Positions 6,354 to 46,873 of a stretch of DNA of 64,000 nucleotides are shown in pieces. Position 1 is the first letter of the stretch, and each line of letters opens with the position of its first letter. The DNA is taken from positions 20,933-84,932 of the forward strand of contig BGKB01000223.1 in the NCBI GenBank assembly GCA_003116975.1, in the 5' to 3' direction. The position numbers and the translations under genes were made by a program. The notes below the pieces were generated by a model. The model saw nothing but the letters and a program-made list of their open reading frames with translations. It made no database searches and was not told the origin of the DNA. The stretch is from Aurantiochytrium sp. KH105. Its lineage: Eukaryota > Sar > Bigyra > Thraustochytrida > Thraustochytriidae.

Positions 6354-9300
6354 TTAGACAAAATCAAGATCGTCGTGGCGAAAGTCTGGGTCGTCCTCGT
6401 CTTCGTCGTTATCAAAGACGGAACGGGCATCTTTTCGCTTGAAAAGCATGGAGGAGAGGGTCGAGCCTCGGCGCCGGCGTGGCGTACGCGCAGTGTTGAA
6501 CGTTGTGTGCGAATCGCTTGGAGCAGAGGACTTGGCACCAAAGAATGACTTACTTTGGTGCAATGTCGTGTCTGTCCCCGTAGTCTCGTAGCCATCGTCA
6601 ACCTCGTCTTCATCTTCATCTTCATCATAATACTCGGTGCCCTCCTCGTCGGTGTTCACAGTATTCGTCATGAACTTGCTCAGGATACCCGAGAAACCAG
6701 TTGCAGCTGACAACGTCGATCCTCTTCGGCGCGAGGACAATTTGCTTTGTGGGCGAGGCTGTTCGCGTTGTTGGCGACGTCGCTGTTGCTGCTGTCTCTG
6801 CTGCTGCCCTTGTTTTTGCTGCATGCCAAAGACCTCGGCGGCCTTATTGTCCAAATCACTTGCCACAGAAAAGTTCAGCGAGGTTGCTGAGGGATCTTGA
6901 TGTCTCGCCCAATCCCCGCGCCGCCCCTGAACGCCTCCGCCCAGGCTTCGTTGACTATTCTGTCTGAATGAAGGCTCGCGGCCGCTGATGGGTTCCATCT
7001 CAAGCGACCTCGTCGAGATTCGACTATCCCATGAAAAATGTGACCCGCGGTTCCGAGAAATGAGCGGAATCTTCTCGCGCGTGTGGCGAGGAAAGAGCGC
7101 AAAGGCGACAAAGAATAGCACCAAGGGTTCAACGATGACAACGCCCACACCAAAGGCAATGACAGCGTGAAGAGCCCAAGATCTTGGGGTGGAAATATCC
7201 TTGGTTCCAATCGCCACCAAGTACGTGCATGCAGCAAATAGCCCAAGCATCAACAGCGCACAGAGAAGTCTTGGTAAATTGCATCGCCTCGGACGCACAT
7301 GATATGCCCTCTCGAGCCTGGCAAGGCCTCGCTCATGGCGTGCTAGTGCTACAGAGATATGCACTTTACCGCCATAGATGCGACGGAGGCCATCATTGAA
7401 TAAACGGAAAAACCACACGCTTGATGCAATGTTCTTGGCCAGACGGTAGTACTTGGAACGCATAACGTGGTCGTGCATTGCCTTCATGAAGATGAGCTGG
7501 CCACGCTTTATGAAAACCTGCATTTGACGCTTGCGCAGCTGCTCGAGCTCCGGATTGGCCGTGCGAGAAATGTTTCGTTCCAAGTCCACAAGCTCTGTGT
7601 CTTCAATCCTGTGCTGATTCGGGTTTCTCCAAGCCTTGTCGGCGGACCGGTTCTTGCGCCGGTTCTTGCGCTTGCGTACTTGCCCACTATTGTGCCAAGG
7701 CGAATCAACGATCGCAATAGCTTGCGCCTTGAGGTGCGCCACACGGCCCAGGACGCGTCGCTCGCTCTGCGCCAGCTTGTAAAGCGCATATCGATACACA
7801 AGAATGACAGTTGCAACCACAAGTGCGCCCACGATAAAGCCCACCAACGTGAGCGACTGTTCTTCGAATTGATCACCGAGCTTATTCACCATGTAGACGC
7901 TGGCAAAGGCGGCCAGCATGGCCAACGGGACCACCACACTCCGCGCAATGCGACTTCGCTGCGGGTCAAAAACCAAAAGACCCGCTACAGAGTGTGCATT
8001 TGCCACATCGCCAAGGAGGTCAGAGAACGACTTGGTAGGATTCATCGGTGGCTGTGCGTGCGCACGAAGCTTTTGAAATGCATCGCGCTTCATGAACTCA
8101 AGGCTCCGAACGTTCTTACCAAAGTGCCGCTGCGCCAAAAACGCCAGCACTGCGCCACGCTGCACGCGATTAGCGTCACGGACATCCTGCGTATGCAACC
8201 ACATGGAAAGGAACAGCCACGCGCCGATGGTTGCACCCAAGATGATCCCCAGCAAAGCCGGGTCAAAAGGCAAACCGGAGTCGACGACTTCGGACAACTG
8301 AATTCCCGCAAATTGGCTCCGCGAGGTGATCGGGCCGCACTCACAGGTAATGATATCCGACGTGCGATTGATGACGGCACAGGCATCAGAGTCCCAAACC
8401 TCTCCGGTCGAGTCCCACATGCTACACGAGATTGCGCTTGTCGATGAGGCATCAGCATAAAGAATGTCCAAACTGAGATTGACGCGTCTCGACGAAGAGG
8501 CAAAAATCACAGACGAGTGCTGAAGCTCGAGAGACAAAACGTCTGTCACAACATTCTGTTGATATGCGGTGGTCTGTTGCGCGCGCTCCGTTGACGCAAG
8601 GTTCCGGCCTAACTCAGAAGCCTTGATATCAATGTTGGCGAGCTTGGTCACAATAGCGTTGACAGTGTCCCCATTGACGCAAATCTCTTCTGGAGGAGAG
8701 CGCAACACCGAGACAATGACCTCATCGTAAACGGCAGAGGGCCCAGGATCAAAGAGCTCGGAAGGAATCTCTACAAACGTGTAATTCCCTGCATCCGTAG
8801 TGGAACTCGCTGGTTGGTAGCGACCCGATACGCCATTGGAGAACTCCTTGTACGATAACGAGTCCATTCCAGAGAAGCTAACTGCGAAGCTGCCTTGACC
8901 TGAAAGCCGCGGGGCAAGGACTGTCTCGATAATGTCGCTGTGCAAATCAGTGAGGGAAAAGTTGTATCGGCAGATCCCGGAGAGTGAGGCGAGCTCGGCG
9001 AGAACCTCCGATGCGATGCCCATGGCCCCCTCGGGAACGGAAAAGGCAAGGTTGGGCTCCACATTCGCTGCCGAGGCAACCTCCACAACTCGGGTGATCT
9101 CATTCCGCCAGAGACTCAGTGTAGTCTGGAACATCTCCGCGACGCGCTCGGCAAGGGCAATGTCATCGTCATCGAGACTGAGAGCGATCTCGAGTAGCAC
9201 GAGCATGATAAGTTCGCCGAGCTGCGAAGAAAAGGTGCGTTCGTGCAGCAAGGTCAGGGCCCCCTCGAGCTGCGTGGTAATCTGAGACTTCAAGGTGTCC

Positions 9301-12041
9301 ACGCCCTCATCCGAAAGGCTTTCGAGAGCACGTGTAAGCACGGATGAATACGCGAGCTGGTCTCGTAAACTTTCATCTGGATCCTCATCATCAACCTTGC
9401 TGGCAACGGTCACCTCATCGATCGATGAAGGCACGCTGAGTCGGATAAACACCGGGTCTGATGCTGGGGACTCTGCACCGTAGCCGTCACGCACAAAGGC
9501 CACCACGGACGTGTACGATACGGTCTCGGTTTTTTGAGTAAAGGGCAGCACAACGTTCGACAACGTTGGGGAAGAGCTCCACTCCGAAATGGAAACGGGC
9601 TCCGCCCCCAGCGTGTTGCGCTCCAGCGCGAACTTGTACTCGAAGAGGTCTGTGTTTTCCGCATCATCGGCAGGAACGGCTGTCAGCGTGAAGCGCGTGA
9701 CACCAGCTGTTCCTTGGGAGCTCGAAACCACGACAGAAGGGGCCGCGGGGAAGCCGTACACTCGGAAACCAATTTCATTGGTATAACTCGACGCATTCGC
9801 CTGCTTCGCGACGAGTTCATATCGAAAGCTTACTTTTCCTGTGCTCACGGCAGGAACGGCGTACGGCTTGATGGCGAGGTTTGGAGAGAGAGGGGATGTC
9901 GCATAGACCTCGTTGACCTTTTCAATCTCTGCAGCAGACAGTTCGCAGCTGGACCGTTCCACCAATTCTCCAATTTCGGCCTCAACGTCATCCGTAAACT
10001 GCCCTTCACGGCGGGTCCAGCAGTACTCGACAGGGGTGTCAGCGCGTGCCTGAACCACGCGCGTCGAGAGAACAATGCCTGCATGGGAGTACGTGACGTC
10101 TGCAACATTGTTGATGGTCACTTTGATGGAGGTTTCAACCGGAGCAGCAGTAGGACTCGGCGTTGGTGTTGTGCCTGACGAAGTTGGTATCTCGAGGGCG
10201 ACCTCAGAGCCACAGATATCCGCCCATGGGCGCGTCAGAGAAGGCACCCGGCTATCCGAAAGGTTCGGGTTCTCAATAATGAATGCCTGCGCCTTGGCTC
10301 CTTCGTCCGAGTGCTCCATATTGTGACAATGAAGAGCAACGCGGCCAAGAAAGGTGTCTGGCTGAAAGCGAAAAGAGACGGCTGCGCCCGTACGTGGGCG
10401 AACGGTGTCGAGCCAATCGCCTCGCTTGTGGAAACCGGTCTCGTCTTCGATATCATGCAAAAGCTGGTAGTGATTGACGTGAATGTGAAGCGGGTGATTG
10501 TGGCTACTCTCGGTGAGCTCCCACTCTTGGACCTCGCCAAGTCTCATGACGGAGACATTGCGCTGCTCGGGCAACGCCTCGTCGGCCGTAATCCAATCCT
10601 TGGCAAACTCAACGTTATTGACGGAAAAGGGATTCACAAGAATGACCCACTGCAGAAAGTCAGGGGACTTCCAGCGCTCCTCAAAGTCAGGTCTCGCAAT
10701 CGTCGCCGAGGCTTCCTGGACTTCGGCGAGCGTGAAGCCCGAGTAAGGACTTGGCTCTCGGTCCAAAAGGTCGGCGAGATAAAAGGGAAGGCAAGCTTGC
10801 CATGAAAACGCAGTGTCCGGAAGCGCAGACGTTTGCGTCGCACTGACGACCGAAATTGTAAAGAGAAACTCCCGTTGATACACGGGATCCTGCCGCGAGT
10901 CGTCAACGAGACCTTCCTCGTCGAACGCGTCAAAGTTGTCATACACCAAGGCTTGCGAACCTGGCTCACCGGAACAGCGAACAAGGACGTCGGCGCGATT
11001 GGCCGGATGAAGGTGAATCGAATGATTCGCAGCAAAGTTCAGGTCACGAGGGCCATCTCTAAGGTACACGCCATCGCGCGCAATCACTTGAACCTCGCAA
11101 TTCGACGGAGTGGCAGCGGAGGCGTTGTAGATGGCCATTTTCAAGTCGCGCACCGCAGCAACGTGCGCAATGCGCCATCGATACCAGATGCCCTGTTCCA
11201 CTTCAAGACGCGGTTTGTAAAGACCGTTGATGAGGAAGATACCATCCGACTTGAAATTTGCAAAGGCATCTGTAGCAGAGTCAAAGCCGAGTCCGCTTAC
11301 GTTGACTGCAAAGGTTGTGTCTTTGACCCCAATTCGATGCGAGAACGGATCATCCTCGACGCCGTCGGAAAGATCGAGAAGTCGGGGCGGATCAACGTGC
11401 TGCACAAAAATCACCTGCTCCGGTGTGTCCAAGAGCTCTGTGGGGATTTCGGTCCCATCGTCCGCATCGTCAATAATGAGCATCCCTGCTGCGCCGGCGC
11501 CAGTAAAAGCGACTGCCAAAGGATGCATGTGCGGATGGTACCAGTGCGAGCCACCGGCGTGGTCCGTGGGGAGCGTGTACACGTAGTCATGGCCCTCTCC
11601 CGGCGGAATCTTGAGTGCGACGTCATCTTCATCTCCAGACACGTGGAGGCCATGCGTGTGGATATTCGAAGTATGATTTCCGGGCGATGGAGGATCGAGA
11701 TCGTTTGTGTAACGAACAGTGACCTTGGCGCCCTTGGCCATGCGGATGATGGGGCCAGGCACTGTTCTGGCGGCGCCATTGGCGCCATAGCCCTTTCCGT
11801 GCATCGTAAAGGACCCCTCGTGCGAGATGGTACGCGTCGTGCCGTCCGTGCTTTCTACGAGAAAGGGTAATTCCAAGACGGATGTGCCAAAGGAGAGGTC
11901 CATGGAGTCTCCATCGCCCAGAACGACCTCGCTCAGCGGGCAGTCGCTCAATAGAATTCCCTCCTCGTTCGAGTTGCAGTTCGCGGTTGTCTGCGCGCGT
12001 ACAGCCTGCACCAAAAAGGCCACGAGGACTACGCTGAGCAT
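6354..12041 (-). CDS. Multicopper oxidase fused to REJ-GPS polycystin-like membrane module
   Basis: Intronless; about 1895 residues from the ATG at 12041, which opens a signal peptide (MLSVVLVAFLVQAVRA). In-frame ATGs further upstream (for example 12197) would add an Ala-rich leader. Residues ~80-600 are a laccase-type multicopper oxidase with all four copper-ligand clusters: HTHG (~127), SHWYHPHMH (~167), HPLHIHVNH (~515) and HCHNMEH (~572). A REJ-like Ig/FN3 region follows (~640-900), then a GAIN-like region ending in a GPS box (C-x2-W...W...C-E-C...F-A, ~1205-1245). Five predicted helices follow (~1260-1280, 1366-1388, 1394-1417, 1586-1609, 1626-1654). The cytosolic tail is Gln-rich and acidic, with two RRRGSTLS motifs. 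Many N-x-S/T sites fit an extracellular ectodomain. Polycystin-1/REJ proteins share the REJ-GPS-TM order but lack a copper oxidase; no PLAT domain is visible after the first helix. Inference: a surface-anchored oxidase or an oxidase-sensing receptor. Confidence 0.85.
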   Translation of the reverse strand: MLSVVLVAFLVQAVRAQTTANCNSNEEGILLSDCPLSEVVLGDGDSMDLSFGTSVLELPFLVESTDGTTRTISHEGSFTMHGKGYGANGAARTVPGPIIRMAKGAKVTVRYTNDLDPPSPGNHTSNIHTHGLHVSGDEDDVALKIPPGEGHDYVYTLPTDHAGGSHWYHPHMHPLAVAFTGAGAAGMLIIDDADDGTEIPTELLDTPEQVIFVQHVDPPRLLDLSDGVEDDPFSHRIGVKDTTFAVNVSGLGFDSATDAFANFKSDGIFLINGLYKPRLEVEQGIWYRWRIAHVAAVRDLKMAIYNASAATPSNCEVQVIARDGVYLRDGPRDLNFAANHSIHLHPANRADVLVRCSGEPGSQALVYDNFDAFDEEGLVDDSRQDPVYQREFLFTISVVSATQTSALPDTAFSWQACLPFYLADLLDREPSPYSGFTLAEVQEASATIARPDFEERWKSPDFLQWVILVNPFSVNNVEFAKDWITADEALPEQRNVSVMRLGEVQEWELTESSHNHPLHIHVNHYQLLHDIEDETGFHKRGDWLDTVRPRTGAAVSFRFQPDTFLGRVALHCHNMEHSDEGAKAQAFIIENPNLSDSRVPSLTRPWADICGSEVALEIPTSSGTTPTPSPTAAPVETSIKVTINNVADVTYSHAGIVLSTRVVQARADTPVEYCWTRREGQFTDDVEAEIGELVERSSCELSAAEIEKVNEVYATSPLSPNLAIKPYAVPAVSTGKVSFRYELVAKQANASSYTNEIGFRVYGFPAAPSVVVSSSQGTAGVTRFTLTAVPADDAENTDLFEYKFALERNTLGAEPVSISEWSSSPTLSNVVLPFTQKTETVSYTSVVAFVRDGYGAESPASDPVFIRLSVPSSIDEVTVASKVDDEDPDESLRDQLAYSSVLTRALESLSDEGVDTLKSQITTQLEGALTLLHERTFSSQLGELIMLVLLEIALSLDDDDIALAERVAEMFQTTLSLWRNEITRVVEVASAANVEPNLAFSVPEGAMGIASEVLAELASLSGICRYNFSLTDLHSDIIETVLAPRLSGQGSFAVSFSGMDSLSYKEFSNGVSGRYQPASSTTDAGNYTFVEIPSELFDPGPSAVYDEVIVSVLRSPPEEICVNGDTVNAIVTKLANIDIKASELGRNLASTERAQQTTAYQQNVVTDVLSLELQHSSVIFASSSRRVNLSLDILYADASSTSAISCSMWDSTGEVWDSDACAVINRTSDIITCECGPITSRSQFAGIQLSEVVDSGLPFDPALLGIILGATIGAWLFLSMWLHTQDVRDANRVQRGAVLAFLAQRHFGKNVRSLEFMKRDAFQKLRAHAQPPMNPTKSFSDLLGDVANAHSVAGLLVFDPQRSRIARSVVVPLAMLAAFASVYMVNKLGDQFEEQSLTLVGFIVGALVVATVILVYRYALYKLAQSERRVLGRVAHLKAQAIAIVDSPWHNSGQVRKRKNRRKNRSADKAWRNPNQHRIEDTELVDLERNISRTANPELEQLRKRQMQVFIKRGQLIFMKAMHDHVMRSKYYRLAKNIASSVWFFRLFNDGLRRIYGGKVHISVALARHERGLARLERAYHVRPRRCNLPRLLCALLMLGLFAACTYLVAIGTKDISTPRSWALHAVIAFGVGVVIVEPLVLFFVAFALFPRHTREKIPLISRNRGSHFSWDSRISTRSLEMEPISGREPSFRQNSQRSLGGGVQGRRGDWARHQDPSATSLNFSVASDLDNKAAEVFGMQQKQGQQQRQQQQRRRQQREQPRPQSKLSSRRRGSTLSAATGFSGILSKFMTNTVNTDEEGTEYYDEDEDEDEVDDGYETTGTDTTLHQSKSFFGAKSSAPSDSHTTFNTARTPRRRRGSTLSSMLFKRKDARSVFDNDEDEDDPDFRHDDLDFV
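8307..8426 (-). other. GPS box of the fusion protein, cleavage triad not conserved
   Basis: Encodes a GPS-like motif: C-S-M-W-D, a second Trp, a Cys pair (DACAV) and C-E-C-G-P-I-T-S-R-S-Q-F-A. In self-cleaving GPS motifs a His-Leu-Thr/Ser triad lies just before x-F-A. Here neither alignment (from C-E-C or from F-A) supplies the His, so autoproteolysis is doubtful. Confidence 0.6.
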
Positions 12042-13393: not shown

Positions 13394-14821
13394 ATGATAT
13401 GCGTGGCCGACGGGAGCCAGACGAGCACGATGCAACAAAAGGATACGGCAGCGGTCGGGCACGTGGCGGGCGCACCGAGCGACGATGGTGACGCGGCGGT
13501 CCACAAGGCGTACCGGATCAGGTGGCTAGTGATGCTTATTTTTTGCATGGCAAGCGCGTCGAACGCGGTCTTATGGATCACCTTTGCGCCCATTAATTCT
13601 CTCGTGCAAGAGTTCTATGCTTGCAGCGCAGCCGCTGTGAACGCGCTTAGTCTCGTGTACCTCATTGCGTATGTCCCGTTTTCCATTGTGGCCAACCTGA
13701 TTTTCAAGAAGCAGGGCATGTATCGGGCCATCGTCCTCGCCGTGTTTCTTGACTTTCTGAGCAGCCTTTTGCGATTCCTGAGCGCAGCATCCAACGCAGA
13801 GCCGCGCGGGGGAAGCGATACCGGCTATGCCCTTCTCTTAAGCGGACAGACGCTGGGAGCGATGGCACAGCCGCTCTTGACCAATGCTCCGGCACTCATG
13901 GCGTCAAGATGGTTTCCTACAAAGGAACGTGACGTAGCCGCGGTCGTCATGTCTCTTGCAAACCCAGTAGGAATCGCAATCGGCTCGGTGCTACCGACCT
14001 TTTATGTCATCGGAGATGACGCTGGTGTGCGCATGTACGACCTCCTTCTCGTTGAGATGGGAGTGATGGCCGCTATCTTCATTCTCGCGTTGATTTTCTT
14101 TGCGGAGAAGCCCGAACTTCACCCGTCGCACAGCGAGACGCTCAAGGCAACGCAGCAGGAGCTCCCACTCAGGAGCGAGCTGGGCCTGATGCTGTCAAAT
14201 CGAGATTACCGCATTCTCTTTGTCTGCTTTGGGGTTGGTCTCGGATTCTTCAACGCGCTCACCACCCTCGTCGAGCAATTTGTAAACAAGAGTGGCTATA
14301 CGTCGGATGACGCGGGTTTGTTTAGCGGTCTACTCATTGGAACTGGCATCATCTCCGCCATCATTATCGGATTGGTGCTCGACCGTGTGCACAAGTACAA
14401 CTTTGTGCTCAAGCTTCTCTTTGTTATTGGCGGCACGTTTGTGATCATCTTTGTGCTTGTCTTGCGTCCGAACAATATGCCTGTTCTCGCGTTCACCTTT
14501 GCTGGCATGGGGTCCGCCATGTTGCCTCTCCTTCCAGTCGTCTTTCAGTGCGCAGCCGAGTGTACCTATCCTCTACGCGAAGACCTTACCACGGGTGGGA
14601 TCATGAGCGCCGGTCAAGTCACTGGCGTAGTCTTTATAGTTGTCCTCGGGGAGATGGTGGATGCGCAGCCCGTATACGATGGCTATGTGTTCGAGCCCGC
14701 GTACATTTTGATTGTTGTTTGTATTGTCAGCTGTGTTTTGGGTATTCTTCTGTACAATGGCTCATACCACCGACTCAAGGCAGATCAAGATCCACTCAGC
14801 CCGGCAAGCACAATCGCTTGA
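13394..14821 (+). CDS. MFS transporter, FLVCR (SLC49)-like
   Basis: Starts at the first in-frame ATG, 13394, giving about 475 residues; the frame is open for 46 codons upstream but without an ATG. Twelve hydrophobic segments are visible. The N-terminal half has RIRWLVMLIFCMASASNAVL, then WITFAPI, and a segment with NAPALMASRWFPTKERDVA. That pattern (W-x-x-F-A-P-I, and R-W-F-P with charged residues in the loop) is typical of the SLC49/FLVCR group, whose animal members move heme, choline or ethanolamine. A long polar loop separates TM6 and TM7. The substrate here cannot be read from sequence. Followed by a tandem 76-bp repeat in the presumed 3' UTR. Confidence 0.8.
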   Translation: MICVADGSQTSTMQQKDTAAVGHVAGAPSDDGDAAVHKAYRIRWLVMLIFCMASASNAVLWITFAPINSLVQEFYACSAAAVNALSLVYLIAYVPFSIVANLIFKKQGMYRAIVLAVFLDFLSSLLRFLSAASNAEPRGGSDTGYALLLSGQTLGAMAQPLLTNAPALMASRWFPTKERDVAAVVMSLANPVGIAIGSVLPTFYVIGDDAGVRMYDLLLVEMGVMAAIFILALIFFAEKPELHPSHSETLKATQQELPLRSELGLMLSNRDYRILFVCFGVGLGFFNALTTLVEQFVNKSGYTSDDAGLFSGLLIGTGIISAIIIGLVLDRVHKYNFVLKLLFVIGGTFVIIFVLVLRPNNMPVLAFTFAGMGSAMLPLLPVVFQCAAECTYPLREDLTTGGIMSAGQVTGVVFIVVLGEMVDAQPVYDGYVFEPAYILIVVCIVSCVLGILLYNGSYHRLKADQDPLSPASTIA

Positions 14822-16878: not shown

Positions 16879-17517
16879 CCTCGAGTCTCATCAAGGTCGA
16901 TGTAAGGGTAGGCTAGCTAGCAGCAATAGCAGCAATCATCCCCCCTCTTGGTTCATGAGCACCGCTGAGCACCGCCGGCTGCAAGTCACACTGACTGCTT
17001 CGAACCCATGGTCCGGCAGACAACCCATCTTCTTCGCCCGCTGCCTTCCGGAGGCATTTCGCTGCACGCGTATCCTCATCGAGGCCTCGCCCTCGCGCAC
17101 GACGTTGCTCCTCCCTCGCAGCAATCATCCTCTCCTCCGCATCCGCTGCGGCCCCATCTTGAGCCCTCCGTTGGCCAAAAAGCGACGCGGAAAAGCATAA
17201 ACATCCCCTCCGCAGCCCCTCCACGAGCCCGCGCGGATCGCCCGCCGCCGGCCCGCGCTGCCTCGCGTCGCGTGGCCTCGCGAGCCTCGCGTCGCCGGTG
17301 ACGGTTCTGCGGTCTCTGCTCAGCTCCTCGACGGCGCGAGTAGTAGCATAACATCGCACAACAATCTAGACCCCGTTGGCGAGCCGGCGACCCGACCTCG
17401 TCCAGGCCCGGCGCTGCGCCGGGACCTTCGCGCTCTCGCGCTGCGCCGGCGGCGATCGCATCGCGTCGCGTCTCGCCCCGCGCGCGCGCGGGCCTGCTCG
17501 CGCTCGCGGCCGCGGCC
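16879..17517. promoter_or_regulatory. Divergent gap between repeat-protein and Furry-like genes
   Basis: About 640 bp separating two head-to-head start codons. GC content rises sharply toward 17518, with CGCG-rich sequence. It is likely a shared promoter region and no discrete element can be named. Confidence 0.5.
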
Positions 17518-20500
17518 ATGGAGCGCGAGGCGGCGCCGCACGAGGTCGACGTCGGCAACGGCGGCGACAGCGTGGAAAAACACGGCGACTCGCGCGCCGC
17601 GCGGCTGCAGCAGGAGCAGCAGCAGCAGGAGGAGATGGCCCGCGCCGGGGATGGCGACGGAGAGCTCGAAGACATTGCGCTCGACAATGATGACGACGAC
17701 GAGGAGGAGCACGTGGACGATGTAGAGGACCACGAAGAGACGGCGCCTGCCGCCGCGAATGAGCAAAGCGAACGGGAAGACGGCCACGTCGACGACAGAA
17801 AAGGAGACAAGCAAGGCAACAAGGAGGCAAGCCAAAGTCAAAGTCCACACGTGGCAGTACCGCCAGTCCCGGCAAGTGCTAACGAAGGCGACGAGCAGAA
17901 ACGCCCGCCTTCGCCAACTGCGAGCTCCGTCTCCTCGACAGCGACAACGGGCACCACATCACGCGCAGCCGTCTGCAGCGACCCATCCCTCAATGACGCC
18001 TTACTTCAGCTTCAACTCTTGCTGACAGCTCACGTGGCAAGAATGTACGGCATTCTGTGGCCATCAGATAGTGGATCTCGCAAACTCGTCGAGGCAGGCT
18101 TCTCACCCAAAAGGGTGGTGGCCCTCCGCAAGGTTTCCCAGCAAGATATCGAGCGCGGCCTCGAGCAGGTCCTTCAATATCTTGCCATTCTTTTGAGAGA
18201 CCGCACAGGCACGGTCGTGCCCATGTGCGTGGTCTTGCTTCGCGTTCGCGAGCAAGCCATCTCCATGGATCCGCAGAAAGCCAAAAAGACGCGTCTACTG
18301 CCCTCAATTCAGCAGCGCGAACCCAAAGAGGCAATCTCCGAGACAAGTCTTGCCATGGAAGGGATTCTTTTCAGCACCTTGAATGAGCTTCTAGCAGGCG
18401 TTTCGGCAGCTACAGTAGTGGAGCCGCTCGACGCCCGCGGCGAAGCCGTCGTGAACAAATTCGTCGACATTGCCTACGAGCATTTTGCCAAGCATCTCAA
18501 ATCTGCCGAAGCTGGATCCCTGGAGCCGTGTGTGGCGCTCATTGGACGTCTCTCTTGGTTCTGTCTTCCACGCACATTGGAGAACTTTGCCACGAGAATG
18601 GGAAAGGTATACTTTAATGCCAGCGCACTCGAGTACGTGCCCTTTATGCAAATTCTGTCACGACGCGTCAAGTACTCTCTTCTCCGGACTCCCCAATGCA
18701 GACCCGCATGTCTCTCGTTCACGCAAGCATTGGCTAAGCTGCTAAAAACCACCTCGTGCGGCGAGCTCATTGACGAGACCTTTCGTTGCGTTGTCTTTAT
18801 GCTCTCCCGACTGCGCCGTGAGCACACGCAGCAACAACAATCGCTGCAACACTCACAGCGATATTTCAAACGAAGCACTTCGTCGGCCAGTTCGGTGGTT
18901 TCGGCGAGCTCGGTGAGCTCGGAGACCTCGGCCTCATCGCCATTAGCATCGTTCGAGGCCGCCATGGGCACCGCGCTCGAGGCCATCTTTGGCTATGCCC
19001 ATGGGTACGCCTCGCATGGCAAGCACCTTCCGTCGGCGCTCGAGGCGATGGAGACTCTTGTAGGCTGGCAAGCCTTGCAAAGCCCCTTGCCTGCTCTTGT
19101 GGGTTCGCAGCACGAGCGTCTCTGCAAGGAGTTGCTCCGCCGCGTGTGCAATACAACGACACGAATCTCTGGCCTTGATCACATGCAGCGCTACCTCAAG
19201 AGTTTACCGCCGACGAGCTCTTTGCCTGGCCCAGAACCCCTCGATGAGATCCCCAAGGCTCTCTTTGTCGATGAAGCCGTACCCCGGGCGCAGGAAGCAG
19301 CGCTCGTGAGTGCAGTCATGGTCGAGCTGGGACGATGTTTTCCACGCCTCTTTGACGCAGCAATGGCGCGCGGACTCACAAGCACCAAAACGACCACGGC
19401 GCAACGCGCCATTTGCCTCAATGCGCTGTCCAAAATTGCGCAGTCTGTCCCTCAAGGCGAACGTTCGCCGCTTCGAGGCTACGCAAAATTTGTCATCAAT
19501 CTCTCTGGCCGTGACTCGCCAGTCGGTACGGTTGCCGAGGCGCTGGCATGCTTTCCCATGCTTGGAGAGCAAAGCCAACAGCTGCTACAGAACTGTGTGA
19601 ACTGCGCATTTGGCTTTGATCTGACACTTGTCGACGCAGGCCGCGATGCGTTGATCCGGTTTTGCCAGCTGGGTCCCATCTATGCCGAGAAAGCCATCAT
19701 GGTCACGGTAGAGTCCCCATCCATCAAGTTAGTGTGCACCATGCAGCATACCAAGGCACCGCTCGACACGGCTCAGATTTCAAGCAGCGTCACGACTCTT
19801 GAACGCATTCTTTGCGCGGCCTTGGACAAAGGTTTCGAGTCTTCCGATCTTGTTGCCGAGGCTGGGGCCTCGTTGCTTCTCGCGAGCACGTATCCCGATG
19901 AAAAAGTCCAGGCCAAGGCGCGGGATGCTCTTGAGCGTATTGGGACAATCACTGACAAACATGGCGAGAGTCAGTACCTGCAGCGTGCGCTTGACAAGCT
20001 CTTGCTCGGGCTCTTGGGCGCGAGCGGTTCGGCGGACTCTTGTGGCGGAGCTCGGGTTCAAGCTCTGAACAAGCGACTGGCGCGAAAAGCGGGCTATTGC
20101 GATTTTGTCGCGTGGTGGCGCAACCAGTGCACCCTGATTTGCGAGGCAAATCTGCCGCATAGCAACAAGCCGCCCTTTGTGCGCTCTCTTGTGCACGAGT
20201 ACCTGACGGCCTCAAGCAATCGGTTGCAAAATGCGGCGCTCATTTCGCTCAGTCATTTGAAGGATTGCCATGAGGTTCTTGAGAAGCAAATGGCCATGCA
20301 GTCGTTGCAGGCGCGCAATGAGATCTTTAATGGGCTTTTTGTAAAGCTTATGGCGGCCTTGCGCGATTCGTATCGCGGTGGCGCGTTGGAACGTCGCGTG
20401 CATCAAATGGTTCGCACGTGGATCCAGTCTTCTGGAGATGAGGTGGCTCGTTTGCACATGGCCAAGTGGACTCCGCACGTGGTCGAGGCGGCAGCGCGAC

Positions 20501-23487
20501 TGTTGCGCAAGTTTGTTCTTTTTGGCCAACTGAACGCGTTTCCTGATCCCGATGTGGCGCGAGACCAGGCCATTTTCCTCATTCGAGAGTGGCATCGTAC
20601 ACGTGACCGTGCGCCGCGTCTCGCCGCGGTTTCGGACGCTTTTGTTACCTTGCTGGACTCGGGCCATCTCAAGACGGTTGACGCGCAGTCGTTTGCACTC
20701 GAAATGCTCTCGGGCAGCGCCGGGTCGAAGCGGTATCAGCAGTTTGGCCTGCGCGCACTTTTACGTCAAAACCTCGATGCCATGCTCAAGCATTATTACG
20801 AGGCGGTCTTGCGCTCTTTTGATCCAGATCGTTGGGCCAAGGAGCCCGCAGGGATCATCCCAATTGGGAGCCCCGCATCTGCTCGTGCAAATGATCCTGC
20901 TGCCAGGGGTCTCGCGAACAAGAGCACTGAACGAAGCCCCTTTATGGTCCACATTGCTTCGGCTGTACTTTACGCCCTCGATGCCTCGGTGACGAGCGAT
21001 CACACGCTTGCGGAAGGTCTGCGACCGCAAATGGCCCTTTTGGTGTCGCTGCTCTTTGTGCACCCACTTCGAGAGATGCGCGAGCTGGTCGCAGGATGGG
21101 TACCGCACGGCACATTTCTGGGTCTGCCTCACCGTGACTTTTCTCCTGCGCTTGTGTCCAACAAGCTATCCGGCCTCGAACGCTCTGTTCTTGTCTCTAG
21201 ATTCCTCGCCACGCACTGGGAAGCGTCGTCGATTGACGAAATGGTCCAGGGCGCTGCCAAGGTGTCGCCGTACTTGAGCGACGAGCACATTAGCTGTCTT
21301 TTGCAGGTGCTTGAACCGTGGCTCGTTCACTGCTACCCTCGCGCTACGCGACAGCCTGGACGTTTGATCACCCGACTTTTGCGACTATGTGCGCGACTTC
21401 GATCCGGCGACAATGATCCCGCATGGGGCATTTGGCGCAGCGTGAGTCTCGAGGAGGGCCTCGAAGAAACGGTGCGCACGATGGTGAATTTCGTGGTGGC
21501 CATGGAGCAAGACAACGCGCAGCAGCGTTCCGCGATGGACGCCATGAGTTCTCTTTTTTCGAAATCGTCTCAACTTGGCGATGCGCCTGTTGACACGCTT
21601 CGTGCGCTCGTTGCCGCCTTTCCGGAGCCCTCGTGGAAAGTGCCAGACAAGGACTCTTTTATTCGCGAGGCTGAAGAGGCAAGTGCCGCGGACGCAGAGG
21701 CGATTCCAGGTTTAACTGCGACAGAGCGAGCGCGAGCCGAGGAGGATACTCGAACTTCGCGTGCAGTCTTGCGCCTCGTAAATCATGCCCCATTTTTGAC
21801 GCGCAATTTCTCTGGTGCGGACCTCGCACGTGTGCTCTACTTTACGTTTGTGGAGGAAGGCGTGGACAGCGCGCTGAGTCAGCGCACGCTTCGCGCAGTG
21901 AATGAAGAGTTTGCGGCAGGCATGCCGGCGCTCTTGCTGCACTTTGAAGCTGATGGCGCTCGCGAAGACCATGACGACGGCGTCGCGCAGCAGGTTGGCG
22001 GTGCTGCTGGTATGGCGAGTGCAAACGGACATGGCAACCTTGCGCGTAGTAGCAGCAAGAACTTGGGTGATCTTGATATTGGCGAGGTGACCAGCGTCGG
22101 GAGCGGAGGAGACTGGCTCTCTGTCATCGCAGAACATAGCACGGAAACCGTACGTAAACTTGCGGAAACGGCGCTTCATTGTGTCATTTACTGCCTCGAG
22201 CCTGGGAAGCGAACTCGCGCGATCATGCTGCTGCAAAATATCCCGACGACAGCCTTGGAGGACAGCTTTGTGCGCGAGCTTGCGAAGCGGATTGAGTCAC
22301 GCTGCATGTATCTTTTGAAGCTGCTTGAGCTGGGAAATGGAAACGCGGCGACCGCGCCGCGTCTGGAAGCTCTCGAGCACCTTTTCATTCTCGGCGAGTG
22401 GCTAGCTTCGGCACCGTCTCTGGAGAGGCGTTTGCGCGAGGATCTCGCGATCCTTGGCACGTGCGCATTGTCGATTCCGGTAGTCATGCGTCCGAACCCA
22501 TTCTCGCGCATTCGCGTCTCGGCGCTCAAGCTGTTGCAGTCGATTGGACCCTCCGATGATGGGGAGGCTGCAGACCCGGTTTTGCAGGATCATTTGGTAG
22601 GCTGTCTGGTGCACCAAGAGGTAGCCCCTCGGGCGGCAGAGATTATTCTCTCGCAGGGGGCAGCGCACGGCCTACCGGAGCCTGCGAACTTCGTCTTGCT
22701 TGCAGCAGCGATTTGCCTTGTGCAAGCGTCGGCGTCTGGGTCACGCGTCCAGGCCGAGACGCAACGCGGTCTTGCGCGTTATCTCGTCAACCAAGTGGAG
22801 GCCGTAGCGGACACCCGTCCCCAGGTGAGCGGGCTATTGGACCAGCTGAGCGCACGGCTTTTGGCCCTATCGGAGCCGAGCAAGTCAATGTTGATGGCCT
22901 CGGCCTCGGCCTCGGCCTCGCCGTCGTCTGCAGTGCGGCGCTCGAGCGACGCGAGCGAGGATCGCGAATCCGTGGTGGCGCTATCGTCATCGGTGTCGAC
23001 GCCAGCCGACTTTGTGCAGAATTTTGTTGCAACTCTTCTTCGCGGATCTGGGACGGCTGCTGTTGTTATTGATGGTAGTGGTGATGCTGACGAAACTGGG
23101 AACGGTGGCACCAATGTCAGCACAGAGAGCTTTCAGTCGGTGCTGCAATTTTTGGTGCAGACGATAGAAGTCGGCAGCGAACCGTGGGCCTTTGGCGCGC
23201 TGGAGCTCTTGCGCGAGTGCATCAAGCATCGCGAAGTGGTGAGCTTGCTACTGGAGCCAGAAAATAGATTGCTGGAGACCGTCATGGACGGTCTGGTAGT
23301 AGCTTTGGAATCTTGGCCACGGGCGCGGCGCGCGGACATCTTTAATGTAATGGCGACGCTGCGGCTTAAGCCCGCGAGCTCGTTTGACTTTATTCACGCT
23401 GAGACAACTGCGCTAGCGGCGAAGCAGCGATGTCTCGTGAGCGGGCTTGCACACTGCAGAGCACAGCTCGACGCGAATTTGCACTAA
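17518..23487 (+). CDS. Giant helical-repeat protein, Furry/Mor2/Tao3-like
   Basis: Single exon, 1989 residues, from an ATG at 17518. Residues ~1-150 are acidic, Gln/Ser-rich and probably disordered. The rest is almost entirely amphipathic helices with Leu-rich HEAT/ARM-like spacing. Ser-rich loops interrupt it near residues 450-480 and 1790-1840 (a GCCTCG repeat encodes alternating Ala-Ser at 22897-22920). Segments such as RVADKF-like stretches early on, SFALEMLSGSAGSKRYQQFG in the middle and a WxxW-containing helix later resemble cell morphogenesis (Furry) proteins, NDR/LATS kinase scaffolds of about 2000-3000 residues. The match is by overall layout and a few patches, so another HEAT scaffold remains possible. 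Confidence 0.55.
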   Translation: MEREAAPHEVDVGNGGDSVEKHGDSRAARLQQEQQQQEEMARAGDGDGELEDIALDNDDDDEEEHVDDVEDHEETAPAAANEQSEREDGHVDDRKGDKQGNKEASQSQSPHVAVPPVPASANEGDEQKRPPSPTASSVSSTATTGTTSRAAVCSDPSLNDALLQLQLLLTAHVARMYGILWPSDSGSRKLVEAGFSPKRVVALRKVSQQDIERGLEQVLQYLAILLRDRTGTVVPMCVVLLRVREQAISMDPQKAKKTRLLPSIQQREPKEAISETSLAMEGILFSTLNELLAGVSAATVVEPLDARGEAVVNKFVDIAYEHFAKHLKSAEAGSLEPCVALIGRLSWFCLPRTLENFATRMGKVYFNASALEYVPFMQILSRRVKYSLLRTPQCRPACLSFTQALAKLLKTTSCGELIDETFRCVVFMLSRLRREHTQQQQSLQHSQRYFKRSTSSASSVVSASSVSSETSASSPLASFEAAMGTALEAIFGYAHGYASHGKHLPSALEAMETLVGWQALQSPLPALVGSQHERLCKELLRRVCNTTTRISGLDHMQRYLKSLPPTSSLPGPEPLDEIPKALFVDEAVPRAQEAALVSAVMVELGRCFPRLFDAAMARGLTSTKTTTAQRAICLNALSKIAQSVPQGERSPLRGYAKFVINLSGRDSPVGTVAEALACFPMLGEQSQQLLQNCVNCAFGFDLTLVDAGRDALIRFCQLGPIYAEKAIMVTVESPSIKLVCTMQHTKAPLDTAQISSSVTTLERILCAALDKGFESSDLVAEAGASLLLASTYPDEKVQAKARDALERIGTITDKHGESQYLQRALDKLLLGLLGASGSADSCGGARVQALNKRLARKAGYCDFVAWWRNQCTLICEANLPHSNKPPFVRSLVHEYLTASSNRLQNAALISLSHLKDCHEVLEKQMAMQSLQARNEIFNGLFVKLMAALRDSYRGGALERRVHQMVRTWIQSSGDEVARLHMAKWTPHVVEAAARLLRKFVLFGQLNAFPDPDVARDQAIFLIREWHRTRDRAPRLAAVSDAFVTLLDSGHLKTVDAQSFALEMLSGSAGSKRYQQFGLRALLRQNLDAMLKHYYEAVLRSFDPDRWAKEPAGIIPIGSPASARANDPAARGLANKSTERSPFMVHIASAVLYALDASVTSDHTLAEGLRPQMALLVSLLFVHPLREMRELVAGWVPHGTFLGLPHRDFSPALVSNKLSGLERSVLVSRFLATHWEASSIDEMVQGAAKVSPYLSDEHISCLLQVLEPWLVHCYPRATRQPGRLITRLLRLCARLRSGDNDPAWGIWRSVSLEEGLEETVRTMVNFVVAMEQDNAQQRSAMDAMSSLFSKSSQLGDAPVDTLRALVAAFPEPSWKVPDKDSFIREAEEASAADAEAIPGLTATERARAEEDTRTSRAVLRLVNHAPFLTRNFSGADLARVLYFTFVEEGVDSALSQRTLRAVNEEFAAGMPALLLHFEADGAREDHDDGVAQQVGGAAGMASANGHGNLARSSSKNLGDLDIGEVTSVGSGGDWLSVIAEHSTETVRKLAETALHCVIYCLEPGKRTRAIMLLQNIPTTALEDSFVRELAKRIESRCMYLLKLLELGNGNAATAPRLEALEHLFILGEWLASAPSLERRLREDLAILGTCALSIPVVMRPNPFSRIRVSALKLLQSIGPSDDGEAADPVLQDHLVGCLVHQEVAPRAAEIILSQGAAHGLPEPANFVLLAAAICLVQASASGSRVQAETQRGLARYLVNQVEAVADTRPQVSGLLDQLSARLLALSEPSKSMLMASASASASPSSAVRRSSDASEDRESVVALSSSVSTPADFVQNFVATLLRGSGTAAVVIDGSGDADETGNGGTNVSTESFQSVLQFLVQTIEVGSEPWAFGALELLRECIKHREVVSLLLEPENRLLETVMDGLVVALESWPRARRADIFNVMATLRLKPASSFDFIHAETTALAAKQRCLVSGLAHCRAQLDANLH

Positions 23488-32007: not shown

Positions 32008-35000
32008 CTAGGCCTTTTTGGAGCTGGCAAGGCTATCTAACACGAACTTCAGCTCCTTCTGCAGGGCCCTTAGATTGGTTAGATGAGCTGATGGACCAAA
32101 CTCCTCGGCCTCAGCAACCCAGCCTTGTACAGTTGTCTGAATATGATCGCACTTGAGCCGAAAATGCTCGCGTACAAGATTCTCAAAGAATCGCGGAGGA
32201 TCCAGAATCTGCGCAATGATGGCATGTTGTATAGTGCTCTCGCGAAGCTTCTCATACCCGCCATTTGCGTGAAGGCGTCGCGCGCGGCGTCCTCGGGCAG
32301 TGCCCCACTCTACCTCAGCGCCTGGCTCATTAAAGTAAGGGAATTCGGCTCCAAGAATCGCGCTTTGGATCGACACGAGCACTTGGATCAAGGTCGATTT
32401 CTTCGTCCACATCTCATTTCTCGTCGCGCCACCTCGCCACGTCCCGAGGAGAGAAAGGCAGACCTTGCCATTAGCATACAAATTGGGATTGAAGCGCACC
32501 GACCCATTCCCCGTCGTCATGCTCTGCACCTTTGGTGGCTTACTCGGATACTCTGGCGGAACATGTATGTCGAACAAAAAGCAACCAGAATCGTAAGGCG
32601 TCCCTCCCGGAGCAAGAATGATCGCTTGCATAAAAAATGGCTGCCGTTCATCGACTCGAACCGCAATTGACGAACCCCAGTGCACGGGCAATGACTTACG
32701 CAGAGATCGCACCTCTCTGTTCAAGCGCATGGCCCGCGTCCGTGCCGTCCTGCCTCCACTTTCAGAGTCTTTCTTATCAGCAAAGTAGTGTGCGGCCCAT
32801 AAACTGCGAACTGTTGACACAGATGCTTTCATGGTTTTGCTCTTGCTCGTACTTTCTGAGCCAACAATTTGACTTTCCTTTAGGGCGTCGCTCCCTTCTT
32901 TACCGCTCGCTTGTGCCTTGGACATCAATGCAAATGAACCTGCTTTACTCTCGTGAGGATGGGACGTTGACAATAAATTTGCCCCCGTGCAACCTTCTTC
33001 ACTTGGCGTCGCGACGCTTTCTTCACCTTGAGTGACGGCCTGGCCAGTAGCGTCCGACAAAGGACTATTTTCTTCCTCGCTGGTTTTTGGTTTGGCACTT
33101 GCAGTTGCACCGCTCGCTTTTGCTGGAGCATCTTCAGCAGACGGAGCAGCATTTGCAAGAGACTCTGAATACGATTCGGTCTTTGTACCTTGGCTTTGAA
33201 CCTCATTGTTGCCTTCGCTAGTAGAATCGCGGCTATAATGCGCAGACCCAAATATCAGAGCTCCAAGCGTCTTCTCATACTCACTCGCCAGAGTCGATGT
33301 TGACGGCTTCGAAATTTCATCTGGCCGATAATTGCCAGCATCCTTGTTTGATGAGCAAGTCTCCGCAGAGCAAGTTTCCGCGGCAGCACATGCCGTTAGA
33401 GCCATGCGGCTTTCCTTCAGCACCTTAACTAAAGATTCCAACAGCGCAATATCTGGTACCTCGGACCCGGTCGATTCGGCTGCAAGAGAGAGAAGCCCCC
33501 CATCTTCGTCACACTCCGTGCATACGACGTCTTCGAGCTCTTCAAGCAGATCATCGGCCAGAGACTGCACGAGCTTTGCCACGGACCATCGACCCTTAAC
33601 CTCAAAGTGCCGCAAGGACTCGAATTCGGCCCGTGTCAAGATGTTCTTGCAAATGCGCAACAAAATTAACACGAGCTCAGCGTTGTCCATGAGGGATTTG
33701 AGCGTGTTTCCGAACAAATTCTCATGCGCAACCAACGGAAAGAATGAATTGCGGACTTCCGCGGCGAAGAGAACGCCGCCATGACCATGGGCGCTTTCCA
33801 TCATCTCTTGAAGTACGAAGAGTACTTGTGCTTGAGCAGCTCGGCGCTTCTGCAGGGCCTCTTCGTGCGCGCGACTGCCGAGATCTGTGTCACGATTAAA
33901 TCCACTGCCATAGCCAGGTTTCCAGAGCGAGACCTTTTCACCTGCAGTCGAGCTGCTCCTACTGCTCCTGCTCCTCCTGCTTCTTTTGACCTCGGTAGTG
34001 TCAACGACGTTCTCTGTGCGTGATGTTGCAGACCTATCGCGTTCATCGGACCCCTCACAAGCGGGCAAGAGACCGCGGACCATGTCCAACGGGGCCTCGT
34101 AGTCAAAGATGCCATGCCCATAGTTCAAAATGAGACTCCCATTCTGGCACGGACGACACACAATCGCGAGACGCCAGCTGTCTGATTGTGGATTTAAGCT
34201 TTTAGATTCCACGAGATCGCCAAAGAAAAAGTCCGCCGGCTTCGCCAAGGTTGCTGCTGCACCTTCACTGCCAGCATTGCCCAAAGTCGCTTCTGAATTT
34301 TGGCCGCTTTCTGCTACAGTAGTTGCGAAAATGCCTCGAATAGCAAGATAACGACGATCATACTGCGCTTGGCGCGCTTCAAAGGCGCTTGGAAAGCCCG
34401 CGAGTTCGCCACTCAGGTCTCCGAGGCGAAGCAACACAAGCCCCACCATGCCGTGCTCAATGAGGTCCGCAATGTCGAACTTTGTGAATTGAGGCAAGAT
34501 CTCCACAAAGAAATTGCATGGATCTTGGCGACAGAGGGCAACGGCCCCAAAACCTGGGTCGCTCTTCGTAAACCGACTCCACAACAATGAGGAGAAGATC
34601 TCGAACACGGTTTCATGGCCCATAAGCTCCGGGAAAATAGCTTTCGAGGCAACGCGAAAGAACATCAACCACCGCATCCAGTCATCTCCGTTGCGAAAGG
34701 ACTGACCTCTTTCGTAAAATGGATCACCAGTCTCAAGAGGGGTAGGACTGCCCTCCATACATACCCTTAGCCTCTTCCTTGGTTTGCTAAAGGTTCCGTC
34801 CGCGTCTGAGCTAGAATCCGAAATGAAGAGGCCATTGATAGTAGAGACAGCATCGTTTTCATAAAAAGAATCGGGGGTGTCTTGGGGTTTAAGACGCCTC
34901 AGTGCATGTTCCCATAGGCTGGTACTGAAATCGCTCAAGAGCTTGTGCTCGAGAGCGCGGACCAGGTGGCCCAACAGCGTAGAGTCACGGCTAAGAACAT

Positions 35001-38000
35001 ACTTGAAGGCGCCAGCAACGGATGAAAGCGTCGAGCAAAGAACAGCGACATCTTCTTCGACAACATCATTCGCAGCTGGCTGCCAAGAAACGCTAATGTC
35101 CTGCATTGATCCGCAGTTCGCACCAGCTGTCGCAGTCAGCGCATAGGAACTATCATGCAGACATTTGCACACGGAGGTTTCAATGTTGCAATCGCAGTAA
35201 AAACCGAATCGAGAAGTTATCTCCTCCAAAGTGTGGCCTTCATGGCAAACTGCCGCGCAGGCCACGCAGCAGCCCAAACCATCGGACAGCTTGCAAGTCA
35301 GGCAGGCGTACCGGGTCTGCGTTATATATCTCTTTCCAGTATGAGCAATAGAGCACGGCTGAAAGCGCAGCTCCCTGCGAGAAAAGTCAGGTTTCTCGGT
35401 CTCGCTCGTGGCTGAGAACTTCTTTAGTCTTGCGAGCATGATTTGCCAGCGGGAAATTTGCGTCATCGGCGCAGTCAGACTTGCACAGTCACCAAGTGCC
35501 AAAGCAAGGCTTGCGCGGACAAGCGTCGGTCCCGCATTGTTTCGCAATGAGATGACGGGAAAAGGACGCAGCGCCCAGGCATAGTCGTTCGCATCCCCAC
35601 TCCACGGAGAATGACTCCGCCAAATGTTATCATGGGGCGAGACTGGGAAGTTGAGCGTCTGACGCCCGCTTCGCATCGTGTGATCCAACTGAAGGCTCTC
35701 AACAAACGTCCGAGGAGGCTCGCTGACGAGCGAGCGAGCTTCATCTTTTAACTCCTGCATCTTCTTTCGGACGGCACTCACTCGATAATTCGCCAAGGCC
35801 GTCCTTTCTTTATCATTTTGTCGGTCGTACATCCACCCATTTTCAGTATCATCGCGTGACGTCTGCTGCGCTGCAGGAAGCCCTTCTTCTTCCCCTTCGT
35901 CGTCGTCGCCGCCGACGTCGCCGTTGTCGTGCGTCTTGCTCGCCAGTTCCAGCGCCTCCAGTCGGCTTACGTGCCACTCCCAGAGCATGAGGATTCTTAA
36001 CGGCAAGCGTTCAACTGCTTGATACTTGATCATTCGCTGCCCTGGATGAAAGCCTTGAAGCTCGCCTCGAAGGCCCTTCTTGCTCCGTAGGGGTTCCAAG
36101 CTGACCGTCGCAATGTACTTACGGTCACACGGAATGTTTTCAAAGACGTGTGCATTTCCCCAGTCGCCGTCAGCCGCGATCAAAAGACACCCCTTTGCAA
36201 GGTCCAGGCGAAAGGAGACTCTCTTCTTGAAGGAAAATATTTTGTTGGGGATATCCCCGCCGTGCCAGAGATACGTCCCACGGACTCCCCACCACAGAAT
36301 ACTCGTGCAGGTCCACGCGATCGGTTCCTCGATATCAGCAATTCCAACACACACCTCTCTTTTATCGTCCTCATCACTTTCAGGCGCCACATCGAATTCG
36401 TACACGTTATTTCCTTGCATTGGCTCAACCTCTGAACTTGTGTTCCACTTGCCGTGCAGATTGCGGGGGACAAGCTCCCCGCACGGGCCTTCTTCCGAGA
36501 TAGGCGAAGCAGATTCTCGTCGCGTCCAGCAAAACGTTTGCAAAATTCGCGACGGTGGCTCTGCGAGATCTTTCGCCGTTGCCCATTGGCTGTCCTTCAG
36601 CCTTGCGACTTGGATAAGTTCCGTGGATCCAACTGCGTGTCCAGGCCATGCGCAGATCGGCGCGTGTTTCATCCACTGCACAGTCTTCATCAGCAAGGAA
36701 ACCACGCGTGCACGCGTGCCATCATCCTTCTCTGCAAGCGAATCATCTTCTTGCCAGTGTGTGGTCTCACAGTTTTCGAGTTTCTGCTTGATCCATGAAG
36801 AAAACGTGCTCAAGAAGGGGTTGGACTCAGGATCTCTCCGCAAAACGGAACCCAAAGTGCGGGCCGTCAGCTCTGTCACGTCTTCATCGAGTTTCCCCAA
36901 AGAAGCAATTTCTGCCAAGTCAACGACTCTCTCGCCAATCCATGTGCGCACTGCAAGTGGGCCGTTTTCGCTCAGCAAAGAAAGTATTCGTAGTCCACGC
37001 CTCCTGTCTGATGCGCCTGCGGTGACAGCGTCAAATGCATCGTGAGCAAACTCCAGGCATTGCGGCTCGGTCGCCCGGCCAGCCGCACAATGCAAAAGAA
37101 TGCAGAGCTCCATGCTCGGTCGTGTAGACGGGGCGACGATTGCGTTTTGCGCCTCATTTGCGAGATGCTGCGCATGAACAGAGGGCCACAGCGTCCCCTT
37201 TGAAAAAAAGTCGCCGGCGTCAGCGCGCGAGAGAGCCAATATTTTCTCGCCGACCGCGCCAACGATTTGAGGAAAGGCCCCTGCAAGCTGTGTCAGTGTC
37301 TGCACAATCGCGATGCCAATGCGCCGTGCAAAGGACGCTAGTATCAAGCAGCCATAAACGCGACTCTCGTCAAAACACCAACCTGGCAACGGATTGTTTG
37401 ACATCGAATCCTGACTGGCAACAAAGTCAGGATGCAACCAAATACGCTGAAGATTCTCGGCGAGACAGTATGCAAGCCGAACGGCCCGATTCTCTTCACA
37501 AGCGCTAGATGGACGAGACTCTCGCTTCGTGCAAAGGAAGAGTGATTCCGCGGCAACCTCCAGAATCTCGACTCCCGCAAGAGCATTTCTCGTGCCTGTC
37601 TCCTCGCCAAAGAGACAGATGCCATCGAGTGCAAGTTCCACAACGTCAAAGACTTGACCCATTGTTGCAGACCGTAAAAGAGCCCGCAATCCCCAGGCGC
37701 AAGCAGACATACGCCTCGCACCTTCTGATGCGTTTGGGAGCGCATTCAGCCTTTGCGGAAGAGCATCCCGTACTCTGACCGGGAGCTCTACATCGGAGGA
37801 TATTCTGCCGTCCAAGAGGCCAAGCTGCAGTACGATTTGCGAAATCAGCTCACGAACATGCTCCACATTGCCTCGTACCTCTGCCGCTGAAAATTTGACC
37901 AAGCCTGCGAGTTTTGCAAAGGAGCTCGGCAGACTGTGAATGCAAGTCCATCGTAATAGATCCTGACGAATCTGTGCCCCTTGCAAAGGCGAGAGAAAGC

Positions 38001-46533: not shown

Positions 46534-46873
46534 CGTTGTTAGTAATCCTCTTCTGCACGGAAAAGGAACCACGCGACGAACGACGACGGCGGGTGCGCCG
46601 CACGAGACGCCTCCTCGTGCGGCGCCGTGTCGGCACGCGGGCGGGCCTGGCCTGGCCGCGCCGGTAAGCGCTGCTCCAACGCTCCTTCGCTTCGCGAGGG
46701 CTGGGCCGCGCTGGCCGCCTGTCCGCGGCGACAAAAGATCGATTCGCGTTCTGCGCGCTCGATCCTTCAAGTTGGAATTGCACGCGCTGCAGGAGAACGG
46801 TCTCCGTATAACCAACCACCTAACAGAAGTATCCGAACTACTCCTCTACTGGCAAGAATGGTATAAGCGAGAG

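Follow-up and report, generated by a model that had tools for sequence, protein, structure and literature searches.

Does the long minus-strand frame at positions 6354–12041 encode a single protein in which a multicopper oxidase (MCO) is carried outside the cell on a polycystin-like membrane module, and what would such a protein do? The window, i.e. the whole stretch of 64,000 nucleotides that was analysed, corresponds to C223:20933-84932 of a 76 Mb eukaryotic genome in 367 contigs, most likely that of a marine protist, and the sequence comparisons covered prokaryote and viral contigs, the window's own genome, and the PDB. All features described below are on the minus strand unless another strand is given.

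A single reading frame in two near-copies

The frame can be translated without an internal stop through 1,895 codons, from an ATG at 12041 to a stop codon at 6354–6356 (coding frame 6357–12041, 1,895 aa). From the N- to the C-terminus there are a signal peptide, an MCO, a short linker rich in proline and threonine (P/T), a REJ-like region, a GPS box, five predicted helices, and a tail, and the domain order given in the original prediction is correct. The signal peptide (aa 1–16, MLSVVLVAFLVQAVRA; 11994–12041) was recognized by eye. It is identical in a second near-copy of the gene elsewhere in the genome (C171), and it aligns with a hydrophobic start in the paralogous pair C86/C46.

The C171 frame is intact, and we read it as the other haplotype of the window gene. 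The two copies align over 1,895 codons with one gap column in 1,896, and they differ by 101 synonymous and 27 amino-acid-changing codons (whole gene dN 0.0063, dS 0.0795, dN/dS 0.079). dN is well below dS in all four segments, with dN/dS pairs of 0.0049/0.0717 for the MCO, 0.0052/0.0981 for REJ-GPS, 0.0052/0.0537 for the five helices, and 0.0155/0.0904 for the tail, which is the loosest. Upstream of the ATG (630 bases), 597 of 652 alignment columns are alike, with gaps of 16, 6, and 1 and a further gap of 11 at the alignment end; this indel-bearing divergence is compatible with a predicted start at 12041, short of proof.

Conservation between the window gene and C171 is strong evidence for a single coding frame, and it concerns the frame rather than the mRNA. 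Two neighbouring genes joined through an error of annotation or assembly, or a fusion in the course of decay, would be an exceedingly improbable source of this arrangement, as the frame is kept and all four segments are under purifying selection in two copies. An annotation error is rejected on the same grounds, with selection evident on either side of the junction, and the same MCO–linker–REJ-like junction is found on other contigs in C86/C46. The prediction that signal peptide, oxidase, REJ-like region, GPS, five helices, and tail lie in one frame thus holds.

There are six Cu-oxidase_3 matches in the genome, and these form three near-copy pairs (C223/C171, C86/C46, and C54/C117) that we read as haplotypes; one member of each near-copy pair was counted as independent in the family alignments. 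Both copies of C86/C46 encode an MCO, a long P/T linker, a REJ-like stretch, and a degraded GPS (11.3 bits in C86; no match in C46), followed by a stop. Identity between C86 and the window protein is 283/619 (46%) in the MCO and 125/523 in REJ-GPS. The long linker, which has a PT-repeat match in both copies, is in the same place as the short P/T-rich linker of the window protein (aa 613–634; 10140–10205), and the shared MCO–linker–REJ-like junction suggests that the fusion predates the duplication separating the window gene from C86. Because the C86/C46 frame stops after the degraded GPS and has no membrane part, its product looks to be secreted, a naturally membrane-free version of the protein. 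A thioredoxin-like gene (by eye) follows C86. The third pair, C54/C117, has an axial Met in its MCO and, by eye, an N-terminal anchor.

The oxidase ectodomain and its bacterial relatives

Pfam and PDB comparisons identify aa 20–612 (10206–11984) as a three-domain MCO. Cu-oxidase_3 (54.9 bits, 1.1e-14, aa 91–193) and Cu-oxidase_2 (46.1 bits, 5.4e-12, aa 478–585) are above their curated cut-offs, and the middle cupredoxin domain is weak in Pfam (12.1 bits, 0.22, below cut-off). Among the best 60 of 167 PDB sequences a Thermus laccase is nearest (3.2e-22), with CueO entries at 3.8e-14 to about 1e-12; these are also three-domain MCOs but are free enzymes. The closest NCBIfam models are those for CueO and CopA, both far below their cut-offs.

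The copper ligands are complete, with ten histidines and one cysteine in four clusters: HTHGLH (cluster I, aa 128–133; 11643–11660), HWYHPHMH (cluster II, aa 166–173; 11523–11546), HPLHIHVNH (cluster III, aa 516–524; 10470–10496), and HCHNMEHSDEGA (cluster IV, aa 571–582, with HCHNMEH from 571; 10296–10331). All eleven are kept in each of four aligned MCO sequences, two of them independent, where cluster I, the ligands His169 and His171 of cluster II, and His516, His519, and His521 of cluster III are invariant. The complete laccase-like oxidase with four ligand clusters that had been proposed is therefore present, with the first and last of its domains above the Pfam cut-offs and the middle one below. 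The type-1 axial residue is Met in CueO, whereas this place is taken by Ala582 in the window protein and by Ser in C86.

Loss of the axial Met from both proteins would fit a catalytically dead MCO that serves solely as a binding domain. We regard this as very unlikely, and reject a dead enzyme on the completeness of the ligand set: the ten His and the Cys are retained in the four aligned sequences, and HCHxxxH is retained in 23 bacterial relatives that have Ala at the axial place. Moreover, a Thermus laccase with Ala at this position is reported to be active with a raised redox potential, and non-coordinating axial residues are reported to raise kcat/Km but to lower type-1 copper occupancy (PMC6487685). 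Ala582 is thus no argument against activity, and we infer that the window oxidase would be catalytically competent. Four thraustochytrid transcriptomes are reported to contain a single laccase unigene each (PMC7641610).

The closest MCO relatives found among the prokaryote and viral contigs are bacterial proteins with an axial Ala, with best segments at 26–28% identity. Bacterial contigs were scanned with two peptide patterns based on the ligand clusters of the window itself, which biases the sample; 480 of 512 matches were confirmed, and 80 loci were kept. The axial residue among these 80 is Ala in 23, Met in 44, and Leu in 13, with Ala in every one of the first 18 listed. The axial-Ala proteins form a clade that spans several phyla. 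They share the axial Ala with the window protein but not its architecture: among the six that were scanned, fn3 is present in five and a T9SS sorting tail in two, and none has a GPS or REJ match. The axial-Ala proteins join the window protein and C86 with support of 99/95 in a 39-row tree that has long branches and drew a program warning (2 of 6 own-genome rows, 15 of 23 Ala, 22 of 44 Met, and 0 of 13 Leu; axial column included); in an 86-row tree, which drew a long-branch warning too, the window MCO joins the axial-Ala clade with support of 91, unstarred. A pattern search of IMG/VR for MCO relatives matched 20 stretches, of which none was confirmed.

The REJ-like region, GPS box, and membrane helices

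Two further near-copy pairs share parts of the chassis. C140/C30 (frames of 2,907 and 2,923 aa) have LNR, REJ, GPS, and five helices, and C15/C6 (2,475 and 2,474 aa) have REJ and five helices, with a cysteine pattern that resembles a GPS by eye and not by Pfam. An fn2 domain is present in C15, the copy covered by the fn2 scan. The REJ call in C6 comes from the genome search; its REJ stretch was placed in the alignment by hand, and C6 was left out of one family alignment.

The REJ-like region of the window protein (aa 650–871; 9429–10094) resembles the later half of the C140 REJ domain. Comparison with the Pfam-grade REJ of C140 by hhalign gives a score of 42.7 (E 1.5e-4, probability 51%) over that later half only; none of 300 column shuffles reaches this score (best 26.2), and the reversed profile scores 17.0. 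The value is slightly above that between C140 and C15, two Pfam-grade REJ proteins (40.1). Against C15 the region scores 29.0 (probability 3.7%), with 27.8 for the best of 300 shuffles. A plain HMM built from the REJ domains of C140/C30/C15/C6 is marginal, giving 8.6 bits for the isolated region against a best of 7.7 among 2,000 shuffles, and 6.4 bits for the whole window protein, where five of 2,000 shuffles are higher; C86 has no match to this HMM. The region is common to the window protein and C86/C46, with matches at 5.6e-5 and 3.8e-4. Kinship with REJ is therefore supported by profile comparison with a REJ-bearing paralogue and not by Pfam, as PF02010 has no match in the window protein, in its pieces, or in C86; the predicted REJ has support as a relationship and fails as a PF02010 domain.

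A GAIN-like stretch (aa 872–1204; 8430–9428) is placed by its position alone between the REJ-like region and the GPS; it has no HMM match and may adopt a GAIN fold. The GPS box (aa 1205–1240; 8322–8429) is indicated by Pfam, by profile comparison, and by its cysteine pattern. PF01825 (cut-off 22.5) scores 19.5 bits when the whole protein is scanned and 21.0 for a piece of 622 aa, and it exceeds the cut-off with 25.2 for a piece of 79 aa and 25.9 in the genome search; the predicted GPS is thus borderline. The box has the four cysteines and two tryptophans expected of a GPS, as in adhesion GPCRs, and a six-row profile of the GPS and five helices, which also includes C140/C30 and C15/C6, matches adhesion GPCR F1 (ADGRF1) in the PDB at 2.8e-5. 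The cleavage triad HL↓T or HL↓S is absent: the window protein has PIT, in which the nucleophile Thr is kept and the His is lost, C140 has HAS, and no equivalent is seen in C86. Changing the Thr or Leu of HLT in mouse polycystin-1 is reported to block cleavage (PMC4810088). The replacement of His-Leu-Thr by Pro-Ile-Thr makes canonical self-cleavage of the window protein doubtful.

Five helices are predicted by hydropathy: TM1 (aa 1262–1280; 8202–8258), TM2 (aa 1368–1386; 7884–7940), TM3 (aa 1397–1415; 7797–7853, in which an overlapping hydropathy window at 1406 was counted), TM4 (aa 1593–1611; 7209–7265), and TM5 (aa 1632–1650; 7092–7148). The charges flanking them agree with an N-out, C-in topology, and the predicted number of helices is upheld. 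The 245-aa tail (aa 1651–1895; 6357–7091), cytosolic in this topology, contains two RRRGSTLS motifs (aa 1771–1778 and 1856–1863), both retained in C171, and the duplicated motif resembles a basophilic kinase site.

The helices are spaced 1+2+2 with a long loop before TM4 in the window protein, C140, and C15, and TM1–5 of polycystin-1 are spaced in the same manner. From the GPS to TM3 the window protein and C140 are 25% identical (E about 1e-7), and the membrane parts of C15 and C140 match at an E of 0.25 only. The GPS/membrane alignment is informative for GPS–TM1 only, because MAFFT misaligned TM4–5 of C15/C6. PDB sequence searches with the helices gave no polycystin, and GPS-to-TM1 matched adhesion GPCRs. 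Other PDB matches of the helices (among them ribosomal L34, a vacuolar exchanger, and Asterix) are taken as chance, and one search returned no match at all; matches within the membrane part to Pfam families such as FecCD, HRG, and DUF456, which all fall below cut-off, are likewise taken as chance. The window protein has no Pfam match to a 7TM family, and Pfam finds neither PLAT after TM1 nor the polycystin channel domain PF08016 in the window frame, where the helices number five and not 11. A pattern search of IMG/VR for relatives of the membrane part matched 75 stretches, of which none was confirmed. Elsewhere in the genome PF08016 is found at 45 places, which may amount to some twenty genes once near-copies are paired, and PLAT at a single pair of places within frames of 617 aa.

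The window protein thus resembles the polycystin-1/sea urchin REJ family in having REJ, then GPS, then helices with the 1+2+2 spacing and the long loop, and differs in that an MCO replaces the adhesion modules, PIT replaces HLT, and PLAT and the channel part (TM6–11) are missing; the likeness of TM1–5 to those of polycystin-1 is one of layout and motifs, with no sequence match in the PDB. It differs from adhesion GPCRs in having five helices rather than seven and no 7TM family match. Another counterpart is Esi0130_0068 of the brown alga Ectocarpus, a stramenopile, a 1,427-aa protein with REJ, GPS, and few helices, in which about 450 aa follow a 976-aa ectodomain; unlike the window protein it has a database-grade REJ (3.98e-30) and six or seven predicted helices, and the account available describes it as picked for being male-gamete specific and reports no oxidase (PMC4700764). 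Oomycete PKDRR channels are described as having no GPS (PMC7399828). As REJ-GPS with few helices was already known in Ectocarpus, the novelty lies in the oxidase ectodomain. No described fusion of an MCO with polycystin, REJ, or GPS was found among the open-licence papers examined, and within these the claim that no described protein combines both stands.

A probable surface-tethered oxidase and its possible roles

Drawing on what can be read from the DNA (a single selected frame, a full ligand set, a GPS with its cysteines and its Thr in place, five hydrophobic helices, and sister genes with a like chassis), we think it probable that this one gene encodes an MCO that is competent for catalysis and is tethered to the surface by half of a polycystin-1-like receptor. 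The outermost part of the protein would be a working MCO, supported by a stalk made up of the REJ-like region and GPS and by a 1+2+2 membrane module of five helices, with the cytosolic tail inside. Electrons from an outside substrate, either a phenolic or a metal ion, would enter at the type-1 copper and go on to the trinuclear site, where O2 would accept them. Stalk and helices together would keep the oxidase on the cell surface. If polycystin-1 and adhesion GPCRs are a guide, they may also signal the condition of the ectodomain to the cell interior. The secreted-looking sister C86/C46 would supply a tether-free oxidase.

Immediately upstream and head-to-head with the fusion gene is a plus-strand gene for a 475-aa FLVCR1/2-like MFS transporter (13394–14821; PDB FLVCR2 1.7e-43, MFS_1 5.5e-22), with its start 1.35 kb away, and this neighbour adjoins the C171 copy too. 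Shared regulation of the two genes is a possibility, and what the neighbour suggests goes no further than a link to metal, haem, or choline physiology. Farther into the window there are a 2,046-codon plus-strand open frame with no Pfam match at E 0.01 (17347–23484) and a minus-strand open frame of 4,944 aa (32014–46845) with a ubiquitin-conjugating domain near its C-terminus and a sub-cut-off match to the UBR-box. The PfaA PUFA-synthase model also has large partial matches in the genome, the best at 930 bits against a cut-off of 1010; PUFA synthases of the PfaA type are a thraustochytrid trait, and a labyrinthulomycete host is plausible.

What the membrane part contributes can be read in more than one way. 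It is quite possible, if short of an even chance, that REJ-like region, GPS, and helices are simply a stalk and anchor with no signal, making the protein a surface laccase or metal oxidase. The altered GPS triad fits this, and the oxidase seems useful alone, since C86/C46 has retained its copper ligands and lacks the membrane part; however, one helix suffices for an anchor, and a greater role is suggested by the low dN (0.0052) of the five helices and by the tail, which is 245 aa long and carries RRRGSTLS twice. A role in iron or copper homeostasis, in which the MCO would act at the surface as a ferroxidase or cuprous oxidase for a metal-uptake route, is compatible with such an anchor and is, in our estimate, possible but on the doubtful side. 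The FLVCR-like transporter beside both copies, one FTR1 pair in the genome, and the identity of the nearest (distant) NCBIfam models are in its favour, but FTR1 is on other contigs, C54/C117 with its axial Met and N-terminal anchor would be an equally good FTR1 partner, and the titles of FLVCR entries name choline/ethanolamine transport in addition to that of haem.

At the other extreme is a redox-enzyme receptor, in which the MCO would be the sensing ectodomain of a half-polycystin, and turnover, reflecting the availability of substrate or O2, would be relayed via the stalk and five helices to one of the cell's numerous separate polycystin channels. A soluble N-terminal fragment of polycystin-1 is reported to activate the PC-1/PC-2 channel (PMC7728438), and we would guess, by analogy, that the secreted-looking C86/C46 product, ending at its GPS, could be a natural counterpart of that fragment. 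The receptor as a whole is an unlikely proposition.

To our knowledge, the ectodomains of polycystin-1-like and GPS proteins are binding structures, and an oxidoreductase in this position would make the outer part of a receptor an O2-consuming catalyst. The genome provides a natural series on a like chassis, one member with an oxidase, one with LNR, one with fn2, and one whose oxidase has no membrane part, together with the many polycystin channel places, and if the host is a culturable thraustochytrid, whether a TM1–5 half can function separately from the channel half would be directly testable.
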